DNA of 64,000 bases, from positions 2,469,501 through 2,533,500 of the forward strand of contig NZ_CP030139.2 in assembly GCF_003846445.2 (NCBI RefSeq). The letters are read 5' to 3'. Made by a program: the position numbers and the translations under genes. A model generated the notes under the pieces. The model saw nothing but the letters and a program-made list of their open reading frames with translations, did no database searches and was not told the origin of the DNA. Each line of letters opens with the position of its first letter. Within the stretch, counting starts at the first letter, position 1. Positions 20,904 to 26,457 of this stretch are shown piece after piece. Origin of the DNA: Synechococcus elongatus PCC 11801. Its GTDB lineage: Bacteria; Cyanobacteriota; Cyanobacteriia; Synechococcales; Synechococcaceae.

Positions 20904-22805
20904 TTGCTGGCAAGGCTTAAGATTGAGCGATCGCCGTTTGCGGAAACCATAGTGCAGCCCAATTCGATCGATCGTTGGTGCTGGCGCCTTCTGATTGTGG
21001 TCAGTGTGGCTCTCGGTGGGTTGGCAGCTTGGATGCCGCGCACGCTGCAGCGTACTGACCGAGCGCTGCAACAACAGCTATTGCTTTTGCAAGGTACTCG
21101 CCCTGCCCCAACTAACCTGCTGATCGTCAAAATTGACGATGCCAGTTTTGATCAGGCCGCCTTTTTCAGTGAGGATCCCCAGGCCCCTGCTTGGGCAAAA
21201 GATCTGGAGGGATTTCCTTGGCCACGGGCAATTTATGCCCAACTTATCGATCGCTTGTTTGCAGCTGGAGCCCGCGCGATCGCGATTGACCTCCTGTTTG
21301 TCACCCCCAGTGCTTTTGGGCCAGAGGACGATGCCGCGCTAGCACAGCGATTGCAACGCTATGGCGATCGCATCAGCCTGGCAACCGAGTATCGCGAGCC
21401 TGATGGCAGTGGTGGTCTTAGTCTGGGTGAACTGACGGAGACCTTGGGCTCCAACCTGCGGGTTGGCTACATCAACACCCTGCCGGCAGATGATGGCCAG
21501 ATTCTCGACCATCCAGCCCGCTACCGTGAAACCGTGGTTGCACCGCTTGGGCTCCCTGTCTTGCCCAGCCTGCCCGAAACGTTGCAAAAAGAGCGATCGC
21601 CAGCTCGGGCGCTGCGCTACTACGGGCCGCAGGGACATCTCGCTCAGATCTCTGCTTGGCAAGTGTTGGATGACGCAGAGTGGCGACGAGTGCAAGGCCA
21701 AGTGCGCGATCGCCTGATTTTGATTGGTCCGACGGCTGCATCATTGCAGGATCAGCATGCAACTCCCTGGGGTATTCAGTCCGGTGTAGAAATTCTGGCC
21801 ACTGCCTTAGCGAACGATCGCGATCGCTCGGGGTTACGCTTCTGGCCCCAGTCTGCCCCCATGCGGGCTTTGCTCACCAGTCTGTTTTCAGTGGCAATCG
21901 TGCTGGTTTCGCGATCGGGGCGATCGCTGCGTTGGCAGATTGCTCCGGCGATCGCTGCAGCGGGACTCTGGATGGTCGTTGCTTGGCTGAGCTTGCTAGC
22001 AGGCTGGGTCCTGCCACTACTGCTACCCCTCGTTGGCAGTCTGGCGATTGGCGTCAGTACTGGCGCAGCAGCCTACTTACGAGAGGGACTGGAACGCCGT
22101 CGGCTGCGGCAGACCTTTGAACGCTACGTGGCACCCGCTGTCGTCGCTGAAATTCTGCAAAGTCCCTTAGAAGCGCAGCAGCTGTTGCGGGGTCAGCGCC
22201 GAACCGTCACGATTCTGTTCTGTGATCTACGGGGGTTTACGGCTCTGACGCGTGATCGTGCCAGTTTGGGTGATGAGGAAACCCTGATCAGTCAGCTCAA
22301 TGAATACCTGACGGCGATGGTGACCGAGATCACCCAAGTCGGTGGCACTATCGATAAATTTATTGGCGATGCAGTGATGGCGGTGTTTGGATCACCGCTC
22401 TCCCAAGGAGAAGAAGCTGATGCGGCGGCCGCGATCGCAGCGGCTCTTGGTATGCGTCAGGCACTCGAAACCCTCAATCAGCGCTGGCAAGCCGAAGGTC
22501 GCCCCGTCCTCGATAACGGCATCGGTCTCCACTGCGGGCCAGTACTCGCAGGGAACATTGGTTCGCCCCAACGGCTGGAATTCACCGTGATGGGCGATAC
22601 GGTCAACTTGGCGAGTCGATTGGAGAGCATGACCAAGGAACTCAAAGCCCCGATCGTGATCAGTGAAGCACTGCAACAGGTTTTGGGCGATCGCCTGCAA
22701 ACCCGATCGCTGGGGCGATCAGCAATTCGCGGCTACGGCGAGGTGGCTCTCTATGCCGTTGAAGGCTGGGCGATCGCTGTTCCAGAAAACCCAAGAGTGT
22801 CTTGA
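20904..22805 (+). CDS. CHASE2-domain class III adenylate cyclase
   Basis: A 633-residue membrane receptor cyclase. It has an N-terminal transmembrane helix (about 28-45), a CHASE2 extracytoplasmic sensor (about 60-300, with ARAIAIDLLFVTPS and GPTAASLQD), three closely spaced helices (about 310-385), and a cyclase catalytic domain. Catalytic residues are complete: metal-binding Asp441 (CDLRGFT) and Asp489 (KFIGDAVMAVFG), substrate-specifying Lys485 and Thr561 (EFTVMGD), and transition-state Asn568/Arg572 (NLASR). The Lys/Thr pair is that of class IIIb cyclases, several of which respond to bicarbonate/CO2. The start TTG has GGAG about 4 nt upstream; GTG at 20952 is an alternative. The next gene begins 2 nt after the stop. 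Confidence 0.9.
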   Translation: MLARLKIERSPFAETIVQPNSIDRWCWRLLIVVSVALGGLAAWMPRTLQRTDRALQQQLLLLQGTRPAPTNLLIVKIDDASFDQAAFFSEDPQAPAWAKDLEGFPWPRAIYAQLIDRLFAAGARAIAIDLLFVTPSAFGPEDDAALAQRLQRYGDRISLATEYREPDGSGGLSLGELTETLGSNLRVGYINTLPADDGQILDHPARYRETVVAPLGLPVLPSLPETLQKERSPARALRYYGPQGHLAQISAWQVLDDAEWRRVQGQVRDRLILIGPTAASLQDQHATPWGIQSGVEILATALANDRDRSGLRFWPQSAPMRALLTSLFSVAIVLVSRSGRSLRWQIAPAIAAAGLWMVVAWLSLLAGWVLPLLLPLVGSLAIGVSTGAAAYLREGLERRRLRQTFERYVAPAVVAEILQSPLEAQQLLRGQRRTVTILFCDLRGFTALTRDRASLGDEETLISQLNEYLTAMVTEITQVGGTIDKFIGDAVMAVFGSPLSQGEEADAAAAIAAALGMRQALETLNQRWQAEGRPVLDNGIGLHCGPVLAGNIGSPQRLEFTVMGDTVNLASRLESMTKELKAPIVISEALQQVLGDRLQTRSLGRSAIRGYGEVALYAVEGWAIAVPENPRVS

Positions 22806-22807
22806 CG

Positions 22808-24157
22808 ATGGATTTGATCGATCGCTTGGAACGGTGGGCCAGCACGCCTCTCTTTCGGCTGGGCAACAGTCAACTCTCTTTAGGGTCGCTGATACTGCTG
22901 GTCTTACTGGCTGGCTTGCTGCTCTTCCTGATGCGTCAGATCAACCGCTGGCTGCGTGAGATTGTGCTGGTGCGTTTGGGGGTCGAGCGAGGCAGTCGCG
23001 AGGCGATCGCCACCATTAGTAGCTACCTATTGACAGCATTTATCCTCCTGATTGCCCTGCAAGCGATCGGTTTGGATCTCAGCTCGTTCACGGTCTTGGC
23101 TGGTGTTCTTGGCCTAGGACTGAGCTTAGGTTTGCAAAAGCTATCTGCTAGCTTTTTTAGCGGCATCACCTTGCTCCTAGAGCAACCGATTAAAGTTGGC
23201 GATCTGGTCAGCTTGGATGGAGTTCTTGGAACCGTTGAAAAAATTTCCTTCCGCTCGACTTCTGTATGCACCCTCGATCAAGTACATGTCATTGTTCCTA
23301 ACGATCGCCTAGTTGATTCCAATATTATTAACTGGAGCTATCAAGGCACTGCCAGCCGTGTTCATCTGCCGATTAGTGTCGCCTATGGCACCGATCCCCT
23401 CTGGCTGATGGATGCCTTGCTCACCGTTGCCCGACAGGATAGTCGCGTTCTTTCTCAACCTGCACCCACAGTTTGGTTCCGCAGCTTTGGTGATTCTGCA
23501 CTGAATTTTGAGCTGCTATTTTGGACCGATCGCCCCGAACTTATTGAGCCGATCAAAAGTGATCTCAATTTTCGAATTGCTAGTGAGTTTCAGCAGCGTA
23601 ATATTCAAATTCCATTTCCGCAGATGGTTATTCACCGACCTCAAAATGCCACTGTAGCGGAGCTGCCAAGCGACTATTTACCCAGTCTGTTACGGCGCGT
23701 TGATCTCTTTCGAGACTATGACGATAGTCAAATTCGCTTACTGATTGAAAAAGGCTATCGCCGCGCCTGTCATGCAGGTGAAATTCTCTGTCGTGAGGGT
23801 GAAGCTGGAGAAGAATTTTATCTGATTCTGCATGGTCGCTTCAGTGTGCAGGTGCAGAGGCAAGAAGAAGCGATCGCAATTCTTGAGTCTGGTAACTTTT
23901 TTGGTGAATTGGCAGTGATGCTGGATATCCCGCGCACAGCGACGGTCGTGGCGATCGAGCCGAGTGTTCTGTTTGTTGTCGATCGCAATAACCTGCGCCA
24001 CCTCTTAGAACGCTGCCCCAATTTAGCTGAAGCAATGGCTGAACAATTAGCCCAGCGCAAACAAGTATTAACAAGGGCTGGCCTTTTGGCGCCAACCTCC
24101 AATCAATCGCGACCCGATCAACTGCGGAGTGTGTTGCGTCGAGTCCTCCGCTTATAG
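22808..24157 (+). CDS. MscS-family channel with cyclic-nucleotide-binding domain
   Basis: A 449-residue ion channel of the bacterial cyclic-nucleotide-gated (bCNG) branch of the MscS superfamily. Three helices lie in the first 135 residues, the third being the Gly/Ala-rich pore helix (VLAGVLGLGLSLGLQKLSAS). An MscS beta domain follows (LLEQPIKVGDLVSLDGVLG, VPNDRLVDSNIINWS). The C-terminal cNMP-binding domain contains the phosphate-binding cassette FFGELAVMLDIPRTATVVA with the expected Glu and Arg. The gene begins 2 nt after the cyclase stop, so production and sensing of the nucleotide look coupled. A TTG at 22802 in the same frame is a less likely start. Confidence 0.92.
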   Translation: MDLIDRLERWASTPLFRLGNSQLSLGSLILLVLLAGLLLFLMRQINRWLREIVLVRLGVERGSREAIATISSYLLTAFILLIALQAIGLDLSSFTVLAGVLGLGLSLGLQKLSASFFSGITLLLEQPIKVGDLVSLDGVLGTVEKISFRSTSVCTLDQVHVIVPNDRLVDSNIINWSYQGTASRVHLPISVAYGTDPLWLMDALLTVARQDSRVLSQPAPTVWFRSFGDSALNFELLFWTDRPELIEPIKSDLNFRIASEFQQRNIQIPFPQMVIHRPQNATVAELPSDYLPSLLRRVDLFRDYDDSQIRLLIEKGYRRACHAGEILCREGEAGEEFYLILHGRFSVQVQRQEEAIAILESGNFFGELAVMLDIPRTATVVAIEPSVLFVVDRNNLRHLLERCPNLAEAMAEQLAQRKQVLTRAGLLAPTSNQSRPDQLRSVLRRVLRL

Positions 24158-24276
24158 GGATCATCTATTCGTGGACTGGAACTGATTTAATGTGCTGTCT
24201 ACGCACTCATTGCTAGAACGATTGCCTCATGCTGTGAGCTTGCTCAGTTGCCATCCGTCACAATAAGCCAATGGGT

Positions 24277-25419
24277 TTAAAGAAACCAAGCAATCAGAGC
24301 GACCAAAATCAAACTTATCCAAGCTGAGATTTGCCCAATTGTGCCAATGTGGTTCAGTCGGATGCGTAGAGTGTCTTTCTCTTCTTTCTTGACTGCTTCT
24401 AGCTGATTAGAGCTCCAAAGGAACAGGATAAAAAGTCCTAGCGAAATTAGATAGCAATAAGCGTAAATCTTGTCCAGGAAAGTGAGATAGGGAATTGCAG
24501 GCAGTTCGCTCTTATAGCTCTGCTGCATCAGGACTAGTGTCAGTAATGCTGTTGAGGGAATAGCGAGACGAACTTCCTCTAAGAGGCTATCCAAACTAGG
24601 AGCGAGCAGCACGATGATCATGACAATCAGTAGCGGCAGAATCCAAGTCATAAAGGCCGACCAAGGCTCAGTAGAATAGAGGACGTTGACGCTCAACTGA
24701 CTAAACGTCTCCTCTGTATTTTTGGCGGAAATTGGGTAGGTATTTGTAGACTGTTCAATCCAGCCCTTTTCGAGCTTATAGCCTGACAGCTCACTGTAAT
24801 TACCAACAATTGTTGTCATGTTCGGGTCTGGCTCTAGCACTACGGCATGATTGCTAAAGGCAAAGGACTCTGGGCGCGTCTCCAGAACGGTCTGTAACTG
24901 CACGCTGCTAAAAGGCGATCGCCGCTCACCAATCTGGGCAATGTAGAAATTCCCTGAGAAACGAAAAGTTTGGTAATAGCTACCATCGGGTAGCCGCCTT
25001 GGTTCACTCGTCTCTGGCTCAATTCGAGAGTTCCAAGGCTCCACCTGATTGAAGAAATCAATCATTTTACCCGGACGGAGATTTTCCTGTTGCAGAATCT
25101 CGTTTAATTCTTCTGTCCAAGCTACCCAATACCAACCATCGGCAGAATAGGTTTGGAGTGCTAACTGCAAGTTGTAGACATTCTTAAGTTGAATTCCAAC
25201 TTTTAAGGGAATGGTTTTGCTAGGAAGAATTTCTTGGCCATCCTGATTGGGTCTGGCAATTGAGAGTTCCTGGCGTAGCGTCTTCGCACCCGTGCTGATT
25301 GCCTCTGAGGGTGCTGACTGGAGCAGCGTGTGTCCCATCAGGATCAGCGAGATAACAACAAGACTCAGGACTAGCCAACGACTTGGGCGAATGCGAATAA
25401 TCATCATGTCCCTAGTCAT
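24277..25419 (-). CDS. Pentameric ligand-gated ion channel-like protein
   Basis: About 380 residues with the architecture of a prokaryotic pLGIC subunit. It has an N-terminal membrane/signal segment (about 10-30), an extracytoplasmic beta-rich domain of about 200 residues (LQLALQTYSADGWYWVAWTEEL), and four helices. The M1 helix is WILPLLIVMIIVLL, then M2 (RLAIPSTALLTLVLMQQS), the M2-M3 loop and start of M3 (ELPAIPYLTFLDKIYAY) and a C-terminal M4 (ISAWISLILVALIAWFL). The loop followed by the (I/V)D after the LP.. segment resembles ELIC and GLIC. The paired Cys-loop cysteines are absent, as in other bacterial members. The ligand is unknown. Three closely spaced starts exist (GTG 25428, ATG 25419, ATG 25407). 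It converges on the cNMP-gated channel gene. Confidence 0.7.
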   Translation of the reverse strand: MTRDMMIIRIRPSRWLVLSLVVISLILMGHTLLQSAPSEAISTGAKTLRQELSIARPNQDGQEILPSKTIPLKVGIQLKNVYNLQLALQTYSADGWYWVAWTEELNEILQQENLRPGKMIDFFNQVEPWNSRIEPETSEPRRLPDGSYYQTFRFSGNFYIAQIGERRSPFSSVQLQTVLETRPESFAFSNHAVVLEPDPNMTTIVGNYSELSGYKLEKGWIEQSTNTYPISAKNTEETFSQLSVNVLYSTEPWSAFMTWILPLLIVMIIVLLAPSLDSLLEEVRLAIPSTALLTLVLMQQSYKSELPAIPYLTFLDKIYAYCYLISLGLFILFLWSSNQLEAVKKEEKDTLRIRLNHIGTIGQISAWISLILVALIAWFL

Positions 25420-25589
25420 ACCCCGCACCTGATAAAAACTCTCGCTTGTTTTTAATTTGAAACTGAGTCAGTATCTGGATCCTACTCAAATGTTTAGGCA
25501 GATATTTTATGAAACTTTATTCGTATCTCCTCGCTGGCGATCGCTCATGTCTAGCAGCGAAGCCAAATTTTTAATAAAACGATGTGAAA

Positions 25590-25616
25590 CTGTCTTGGTC
25601 TTGATCGGCAAGACAG
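25590..25616 (-). terminator. Weak hairpin downstream of the creatininase gene
   Basis: A perfect 8-bp stem CTGTCTTG/CAAGACAG with an 11-nt loop lies about 100 nt past the creatininase stop on the minus strand and is followed only by TTT. It may terminate that transcript weakly. The rest of the AT-rich 25429-25710 gap shows no supported gene. Confidence 0.3.
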
Positions 25617-25710
25617 ACTGGCTCTTGAGATTATTTGAATAAGTCAATCGCCGCTCAGATGACAGAGCGTTTCTAGTGTCTTGAGTCAACTAAAAAGCAA
25701 TGACTCGCAC

Positions 25711-26457
25711 TCACTCTGATACCAGAAAAGATTCATAGGATTGGCTGAGTGCTGCCACAGCCGCTTCATAGAAACGTTGACCCTGTTCAGGTGTTGCGAG
25801 AGCAGGATTAGACCCCATCCGACCATCGGGATAGCGGCGTCGGAAATCAGCTGCGGCATAGATAGCATGACTGGTGTTCACCTCAGCGGTCAGCGGCGCT
25901 TTTTTAATGGACTTGGGATGGACGAACTGCGTGAGCGCGACTTCACTGGGGGTGGCATGGGACCCTTCTTCGTCGCCATACAGCTCGCGGGCCAGATGGG
26001 TCACTGCAGGCACCATGAACCAGTTCGCGAGATGACAGCGCAGGCGATCGGGTTCTGGGCAGCGGCGATCGCTTGCCACAGCGTAAAACTCCGCAAACGC
26101 AGCACGCACCGTTGCAATATTGCCCCCATGCCCATTGATGAAATAGAAGTGGCGAAAGCCGTGCTGAGCCAGGCTACTGAGGTAGTCCACCAACACCTGA
26201 AGCAGGGTGCTGGGTCGCAAGCTAATACTGCCGGGGAAGGCGAGATGGTGCAGCGCCATACCGACATTGATTGTTGGCCCAACGATCGCTTGGCATCGAT
26301 CAGCAACCCCCTGGGCGATCGCTTCCGCACAAATTGCATCAGTCCCAATGAGTCCAATGGGGCCATGTTGCTCAGTGGAGCCGATAGGGATGATGATGCC
26401 GTCACTCTGTTGCAGATAAGCTTCGACTTCAGGCCAGGTAGAACGCTGCAACAGCAT
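25711..26457 (-). CDS. Creatininase-family amidohydrolase
   Basis: A 248-residue member of the creatininase/MftE fold, a binuclear metal hydrolase. Visible metal-site motifs are PIGSTEQHGP (Glu, His), GTDAI (Asp), FINGHGGN (His) and DEEGSHATPSE. True creatinine amidohydrolase activity is not implied: most cyanobacterial members have unknown amide or formamide substrates. It is isolated between AT-rich spacers and diverges from the J-domain gene. Confidence 0.88.
   Translation of the reverse strand: MLLQRSTWPEVEAYLQQSDGIIIPIGSTEQHGPIGLIGTDAICAEAIAQGVADRCQAIVGPTINVGMALHHLAFPGSISLRPSTLLQVLVDYLSSLAQHGFRHFYFINGHGGNIATVRAAFAEFYAVASDRRCPEPDRLRCHLANWFMVPAVTHLARELYGDEEGSHATPSEVALTQFVHPKSIKKAPLTAEVNTSHAIYAAADFRRRYPDGRMGSNPALATPEQGQRFYEAAVAALSQSYESFLVSE

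Follow-up and report, generated by a model that had tools for sequence, protein, structure and literature searches.

A divergent pentameric ligand-gated ion channel homolog of Synechococcus elongatus PCC 11801 and the possible binding-protein partners of its relatives

Background

Pentameric ligand-gated ion channels (pLGICs) have several bacterial representatives, and to our knowledge the natural ligands of most of these are unsettled. In a 64,000-nucleotide stretch of the Synechococcus elongatus PCC 11801 genome (hereafter the window; coordinates given without a locus name are positions in it) a first-pass annotation had recognized a divergent homolog of this family lying next to a gene for an MscS channel with a cNMP-binding domain. 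This raises the questions of whether the gene indeed encodes such a channel, whether it has anything to do with its neighbor, and what might open the pore.

A divergent member of the pLGIC superfamily

The open reading frame starts with a GTG at its 25428 end, and the in-frame ATG at codon 4 corresponds to the end at 25419 given earlier. It is the sole match for this gene in its own 2.80-Mb genome (E<=1e-3). Pfam recovered no family in its product at E<=1 and the NCBIfam LGIC_1 profile scored 24.6 bits where its cutoff is 500; thus, the search with neurotransmitter-gated channel profiles that had been suggested as a check falls below cutoff for the window sequence alone. Although missed by Pfam alone, homology across both the extracytoplasmic and the membrane domains emerges from comparison with solved structures: phmmer matched residues 71-339 to ELIC (5.1e-9) and weakly recovered GLIC (6i08; 0.0065), while a profile built from 26 relatives gave matches covering almost the full length, at 2.9e-33 to ELIC and about 2e-24 to 3e-23 to GLIC. 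Among those 26 aligned relatives Pfam detects Neur_chan_memb in eight and Neur_chan_LBD in three (E<=0.01).

An AlphaFold2 model computed from 57 aligned sequences (mean pLDDT 88.2, pTM 0.79) presents an N-terminal helix, a beta domain with strands from 73 to 253 and then four helices, in agreement with the helix order and beta-rich extracytoplasmic domain first proposed. The best Foldseek match of the model is GLIC (1.2e-19), and VIA-align superimposes the two over 282 residues spanning 69-383 with Z 22.8, rmsd 2.6 and 21% identity. Hence, the modeled single chain has the beta-sandwich and four-helix bundle that had been predicted for it. As phmmer, the profile, the model and the fold match agree, the window gene is a pLGIC homolog by sequence and fold, with a match beyond chance, and the original family assignment is borne out. 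The only cysteine of the protein is C325, which lies in M3; it therefore has no pair of cysteines bounding the beta6-beta7 loop and is not a Cys-loop receptor in the strict sense, just as had been noted. The gene and the parts of its product are as follows:

24277..25428, minus strand: pLGIC-family gene, 383 aa (ORF, phmmer, family profile, AlphaFold2, fold match)
25318..25386, minus strand: N-terminal hydrophobic helix, residues 15-37, signal-peptide-like (AlphaFold2 secondary structure; putative export)
24670..25224, minus strand: extracytoplasmic beta-sandwich domain, residues 69-253 (model, fold match)
24913..24915, minus strand: Pro-loop proline P172 (family alignment)
24907..24909, minus strand: S174, replacing the F/YPxD aspartate of the superfamily (family alignment)
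24670..24672, minus strand: T253, replacing the pre-M1 arginine of the superfamily (family alignment)
24607..24666, minus strand: M1 helix, residues 255-274, containing P265 (model, alignment)
24511..24588, minus strand: M2 pore helix, residues 281-306, with E-2', R0', P4', T6', L9' and T10' (model, alignment)
24394..24480, minus strand: M3 helix, residues 317-345 (model)
24283..24387, minus strand: M4 helix, residues 348-382 (model)

Phyletic distribution and phylogeny

The first-pass annotation had regarded a cyanobacterial channel of this family as unusual. This does not hold, given that GLIC itself is cyanobacterial, that 33 of the 386 genomes sampled from the phylum contain matches (E<=1e-3), and that Tasneem et al. 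2004 already list members in Gloeobacter, Crocosphaera, Nostoc and Synechococcus (PMC549065). A motif-based scan, with each species represented by a single genome, yielded 118 confirmed places, of which 80 were kept, with matches from Synechococcaceae and from MAGs whose titles name, among other groups, Myxococcota, Gammaproteobacteria, Verrucomicrobiales and Methylococcales; as these relatives were found via one M2 motif, the set leans towards the subfamily described below. From the 127 ORF hits, eight fragments or read-through frames were dropped before alignment and two duplicates were removed among the remaining 119, leaving 117 distinct rows. These ORF counts differ from genome counts, since one genome can enter twice via two collections (e.g. 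L036 and L119).

In a quick LG+G4 tree of the 117 rows, in which long branches were flagged, the window protein groups with four rows from Synechococcaceae MAGs (SH-aLRT 98) inside a subfamily of 103 rows (SH-aLRT 97). The window gene adds a stand-alone member to this branch, and is present in one of the two genomes of the genus that were compared.

A pore-helix signature and the loss of a salt bridge

Jaiteh et al. 2016 (PMC4795631) describe the Pro-loop proline as the one absolutely conserved residue of the superfamily, and give conservation of 77% for the M1 proline and 88% for the M2-M3 proline, which are hence common and not defining, 93% for the F/YPxD aspartate and 94% for the pre-M1 arginine. 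As that account places the aspartate and arginine below 100%, with only the proline absolute, we treated the Asp-Arg pair as common and not defining too. In our alignment P172 of the Pro-loop, P265 of M1 and P310 between M2 and M3 are each kept in 117/117 distinct rows, including the window protein. The last of these prolines belongs to the M2-M3 loop LPAIPYLTFLD, which had been singled out as characteristic of the family and is present as described, with its D319 kept in 103/103 subfamily rows. The beta9 aromatic of the window protein is a tyrosine.

At the two salt-bridge positions the window protein has S174 and T253, implying that binding is coupled to gating by other than the usual means, or not at all. 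The acid plus R is found in 14/14 outgroup rows; among the 103 subfamily rows the acid is present in 49, an R or K occupies the aligned column in nine, and both occur together in six. The subfamily may have undergone a one-residue shift before M1 relative to ELIC, so that in some rows a nearby base could replace the arginine; even so, 41 subfamily rows have neither the acid nor an R or K within one column, and in the alignment against ELIC the window protein has no base in the near pre-M1 columns.

The M2 helix, for which we assigned prime numbering via the alignment to ELIC, is by comparison almost uniform in the subfamily: R0', P4', L9' and T10' are found in all 103 rows and an acid at -2' in 102, with P4' also seen in 7/14 outgroup rows. 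The window protein has all five of these residues and lies inside the 103-row clade. It is accordingly a member of a subfamily (103/117 distinct sequences) that is typified by this M2 signature and most of whose members, the window protein included, have lost the Asp-Arg salt bridge of the superfamily. In the open-licence literature we found no description of this signature together with the loss of the bridge; earlier reports elsewhere are possible. A subfamily that keeps the fold without a conserved inter-domain Asp-Arg bridge could serve to test which contacts gating really needs. Separately, a frame of 692 aa at the locus L123 (5208-7286, minus strand) encodes in its C-terminal part a second channel, with a canonical FPFD Pro-loop; its long N-terminal part is probably read-through.

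A probable insertion between two convergent genes

The channel gene lies in a stretch with the following flanks:

24152..25708, no strand: 1557-bp stretch containing the channel gene, missing from the second genome of the genus compared (genome comparison, GC)
22802..24157, plus strand: MscS channel with cNMP-binding domain, one flank of the empty site, outside the system (Pfam, neighbor comparison)
25711..26457, minus strand: creatininase-family gene, the other flank of the empty site, outside the system (Pfam, neighbor comparison)

The creatininase-family gene is upstream of the channel gene on the same strand, and the MscS gene lies on the other side, convergent with the channel gene and 119 bp from it. 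In G387, the sole other genome of the genus compared, no match to the channel was obtained at E<=1e-3; its creatininase and MscS genes are convergent and only 7 bp apart, and the counterpart of 24152-25708 is missing. Likewise, the LGIC_1 profile, itself a weak matcher, found nothing in a Synechococcus elongatus control genome and did match the window genome. The GC content of the 1557-bp stretch is 0.453 versus 0.55 for the window, lower than in every stretch of that length sampled at 100-bp steps across it. The empty site and the low GC together make transfer into the site the simplest account, and the channel gene was probably gained horizontally between the convergent MscS and creatininase genes; the converse reading is that it was lost in the sister genome rather than gained here. 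A promoter and terminator scan of 24100-25720 gave counts within the shuffle range.

A recent arrival, to which the low GC and the empty site of the sister genome point, could also mean that the gene is decaying after transfer, and the absence of both salt-bridge partners might be taken to indicate a non-conducting receptor that has lost gating. We consider such a loss of function quite improbable: the 383-codon frame is unbroken, every residue that is invariant across the 103 subfamily rows is retained by the window protein, and the salt bridge has commonly been lost in its subfamily at large.

The neighboring MscS gene calls for a separate assessment, as the adjacency of the two channels had been remarked on in the first-pass annotation. 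Their convergent arrangement at short distance might suggest a single signaling unit; however, no relative has an MscS gene as immediate neighbor of its channel, and in G387 the MscS gene stands without one. Of the relatives' loci that were fetched, seven contain an MscS-like ORF (E<=1e-6, 26-35% identity), in each case no closer than about 1.7 kb to the channel, and four of the seven (L070, L100, L106, L125) have the hemB context discussed below, on the window's side of the tree. Since G387 has the creatininase and MscS genes 7 bp apart without the channel, the adjacency is incidental; a joint signaling unit is extremely improbable, and we rejected an MscS partnership on the basis of the relatives' loci and the empty site. 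The MscS gene itself overlaps at its start (22802-24157), by 4 bases, a CHASE2-adenylate/guanylate cyclase gene (20904-22805), both on the plus strand, as in an operon-like pair.

Periplasmic binding proteins beside the channels of relatives

Clustering of the genes near the relatives revealed two sets of class-I periplasmic binding proteins, matching Peripla_BP_5 (c5) and Peripla_BP_6 (c6) respectively. After removal of two fragments from the 127 ORFs, such a gene lies within 1 kb of 43/125 channel ORFs (22 c5 and 21 c6), or of 41 of the 117 distinct rows (20 c5 and 21 c6). The two sets occupy separate clades of the tree, accounting for 20/24 c5-clade rows and 21/33 c6-clade rows. The c5 gene is upstream of the channel on the same strand in 17/22 cases, and the gaps between the two genes (n=22) range from -93 to +52 bp, eight being exactly -3, that is, a 4-base overlap; exact distances for c6 are unsure, as its ORF starts are probably over-extended and yield large negative gaps. 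The c6 profile was contaminated by one ABC-type protein (L130), which at 3.4 kb from its channel is outside the counts for distances below 1 kb. As only one further ORF of the c5 or c6 type (a raw count) occurs in the 1.59 Mb of fetched sequence, chance proximity is not credible. No LIV-type permease was detected in the 22 c5 or 20 c6 loci. A simple lipobox pattern is present in 19/22 c5 binding proteins. Distance matrices of channel and binding protein correlate with r 0.86 for 21 c5 pairs and 0.87 for 19 c6 pairs (0/2000 permutations as high), a measure that does not separate co-adaptation from shared descent.

In a third context, which comprises 14 tree rows and lacks a binding protein, the channel gene sits between dnaJ and hemB; the window protein clusters with a subset of these rows. 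L031 (5833-9021) and similar loci exemplify this arrangement, a stable housekeeping setting. The neighbors of the remaining relatives (20 proteins from 18 loci, of which two matched no Pfam family) included no binding protein by Pfam. Similarly, no class-I binding protein ORF is found in the window, and its channel gene therefore does not show the c5/c6 type of pairing, with such a gene within 1 kb. Two further arrangements may be recorded here: L051 (3807-10800) and L054 (3798-10763) each carry a c6 binding-protein gene between two channel genes that lie about 4.6 kb from each other, a canonical one with acid plus R and one belonging to the subfamily, and in L067 (7116-9419) a distant channel relative adjoins a bestrophin-family gene.

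A potential urea receptor in the c5 clade

The nearest relatives of the two sets differ: the c6 protein of L048 is closest to a probable Leu/Ile/Val-binding protein (6e-59), and the c5 protein of L074 matches the urea-binding protein 7s6f at 9e-143 versus 4e-36 for AmiC. Using the urea-site residues given in the paper on the Prochlorococcus UrtA-urea structure (PMC10392092; PDB 8hic), we found Trp120, Ser122, Tyr141, Gln144, Glu146, Tyr190, Asn246 and Ser274 all kept in 22/22 c5 proteins, and Phe192 uniformly replaced by Tyr. In Synechococcus WH7803 (L111, 7953-10384) the UrtA-like gene shares 4 bases with the channel gene, and the record, titled complete genome sequence, has no other match at E<=1e-10. 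The same record has no matches to the BPD_transp_2 permease or to urease alpha (E<=0.001), searches that succeeded in 12/14 and 4/14 control genomes respectively; given these two blanks, the UrtA-like protein of WH7803 appears to have no transporter or urease of the usual kind to serve. In this connection, a 2021 review states that picocyanobacteria carry orphan urtA genes and calls their role and partners unresolved (PMC8786288).

These observations lead us to propose, tentatively and as something possible if short of probable, that in part of the subfamily the receptor is the product of two genes: a periplasmic lipoprotein binding urea (the UrtA-like c5 set) or another small molecule (the LIV-like c6 set) would dock on the pLGIC and open its pore. 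If true, this would constitute a bacterial urea-sensing receptor channel and assign a partner to the orphan picocyanobacterial urtA genes, with the rewired interface between periplasmic and membrane domains left by the lost Asp-Arg bridge serving protein-mediated gating and the window protein being a stand-alone member of the same subfamily. The linked binding proteins, with a fully conserved and structurally known urea site, offer a concrete, testable ligand for the c5 clade, and the c5/c6 pairing suggests a possible route from an outside nutrient signal to an ion current in bacteria. In the open-licence literature we found no report of a pairing of UrtA with a pLGIC, nor of a recurring separate class-I partner or its intact urea site, with the proviso that earlier reports may exist elsewhere.

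Predicted function of the window protein

For the window gene itself, we consider it probable that the product forms a homopentameric, stimulus-gated ion channel that faces the periplasm and belongs to the pLGIC (Pro-loop) superfamily, within the subfamily with acid -2', R0', P4', L9' and T10'. The N-terminal helix would export the protein, and five copies would assemble as a homopentamer with the beta domain in the periplasm, where a bound small molecule would open the pore via this domain. Selectivity rules for these channels link an acid at -2' without a proline there to cation preference; as the window protein has the acid and no anion-type proline at this position, a cation-preferring pore is predicted from its sequence. 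The open pore would then pass cations and shift the membrane potential or ion content, consistent with a sensory role. Presentation of the ligand by a class-I periplasmic binding protein would apply to the c5/c6 relatives only; for the window protein direct binding of the ligand is more likely, because its clade has no linked binding protein.

GLIC is gated by protons, DeCLIC by calcium and sTeLIC by alkaline pH. The window channel might similarly respond directly to pH or an inorganic ion, with no organic ligand, and its best fold matches are in fact GLIC and sTeLIC; however, similarity of fold says nothing on the agonist, and we regard this alternative as unlikely. A different possibility is that a binding protein from another part of the genome gates the channel, much as adjacent ones may gate its c5/c6 relatives, a notion to which the frequency of such neighbors among the relatives lends some appeal. 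The window genome has two class-I binding proteins, at about 0.78 and 1.5 Mb from the channel in contig coordinates, one of which (L155, 5948-7210) has no adjoining ABC genes. However, the L155 protein occurs in 8/33 channel-bearing genomes against 101/386 overall, which compared by eye indicates no association, and reaches only 70 bits against the c6 profile; the other sits in an ABC transporter operon, and none of the 14 rows of the hemB context, where the window protein is placed in the tree, has a binding protein beside it. This alternative is hence improbable, and L155 was rejected as a partner for want of co-occurrence. In its own right L155 is a class-I binding lipoprotein whose gene adjoins a response regulator, its distribution across the phylum having been scored at E<=1e-40.

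Comparison with known systems

Like GLIC of Gloeobacter violaceus, the window protein is cyanobacterial, has no Cys-loop cysteines and adopts the same fold over 69-383; it differs in having neither the PxD aspartate nor the pre-M1 arginine and in having P4' in M2, as does its entire subfamily. ELIC, the amine-gated channel of Erwinia, is its best sequence match and shares the pattern LP..PY.T..D after M2, whereas ELIC has FPFD, an R before M1 and S at 4' where the window protein has SPFS, T and P.

That a binding protein may serve a bacterial pLGIC has been suggested before. Tasneem et al. 2004 (PMC549065) reported bacterial ART-LGICs with PBP-I fusions (Magnetospirillum, Bradyrhizobium) or PBP-II gene neighbors, proposed that the binding proteins concentrate ligands for the channel, and described the cyanobacterial forms as simple in architecture. 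The c5/c6 systems resemble these ART-LGICs, as there described, in tying a pLGIC to a periplasmic binding protein that would help present the ligand, but use a separate class-I gene (UrtA-like or LIV-like) in place of a fused PBP-I or a separate PBP-II; the window gene itself has no such neighbor. Compared to the UrtA of ABC urea transporters (PMC10392092), the c5 partners align over nearly the full length and share the eight urea-site residues, and differ in the Tyr for Phe192 and in that a channel adjoins them instead of a LIV-type permease. The arrangement further recalls the histidine kinases switched by solute-binding proteins (PMC11113362), where the gene for the receptor likewise adjoins that for the binding protein, with the difference that the receptor in those systems is a kinase and not a channel.
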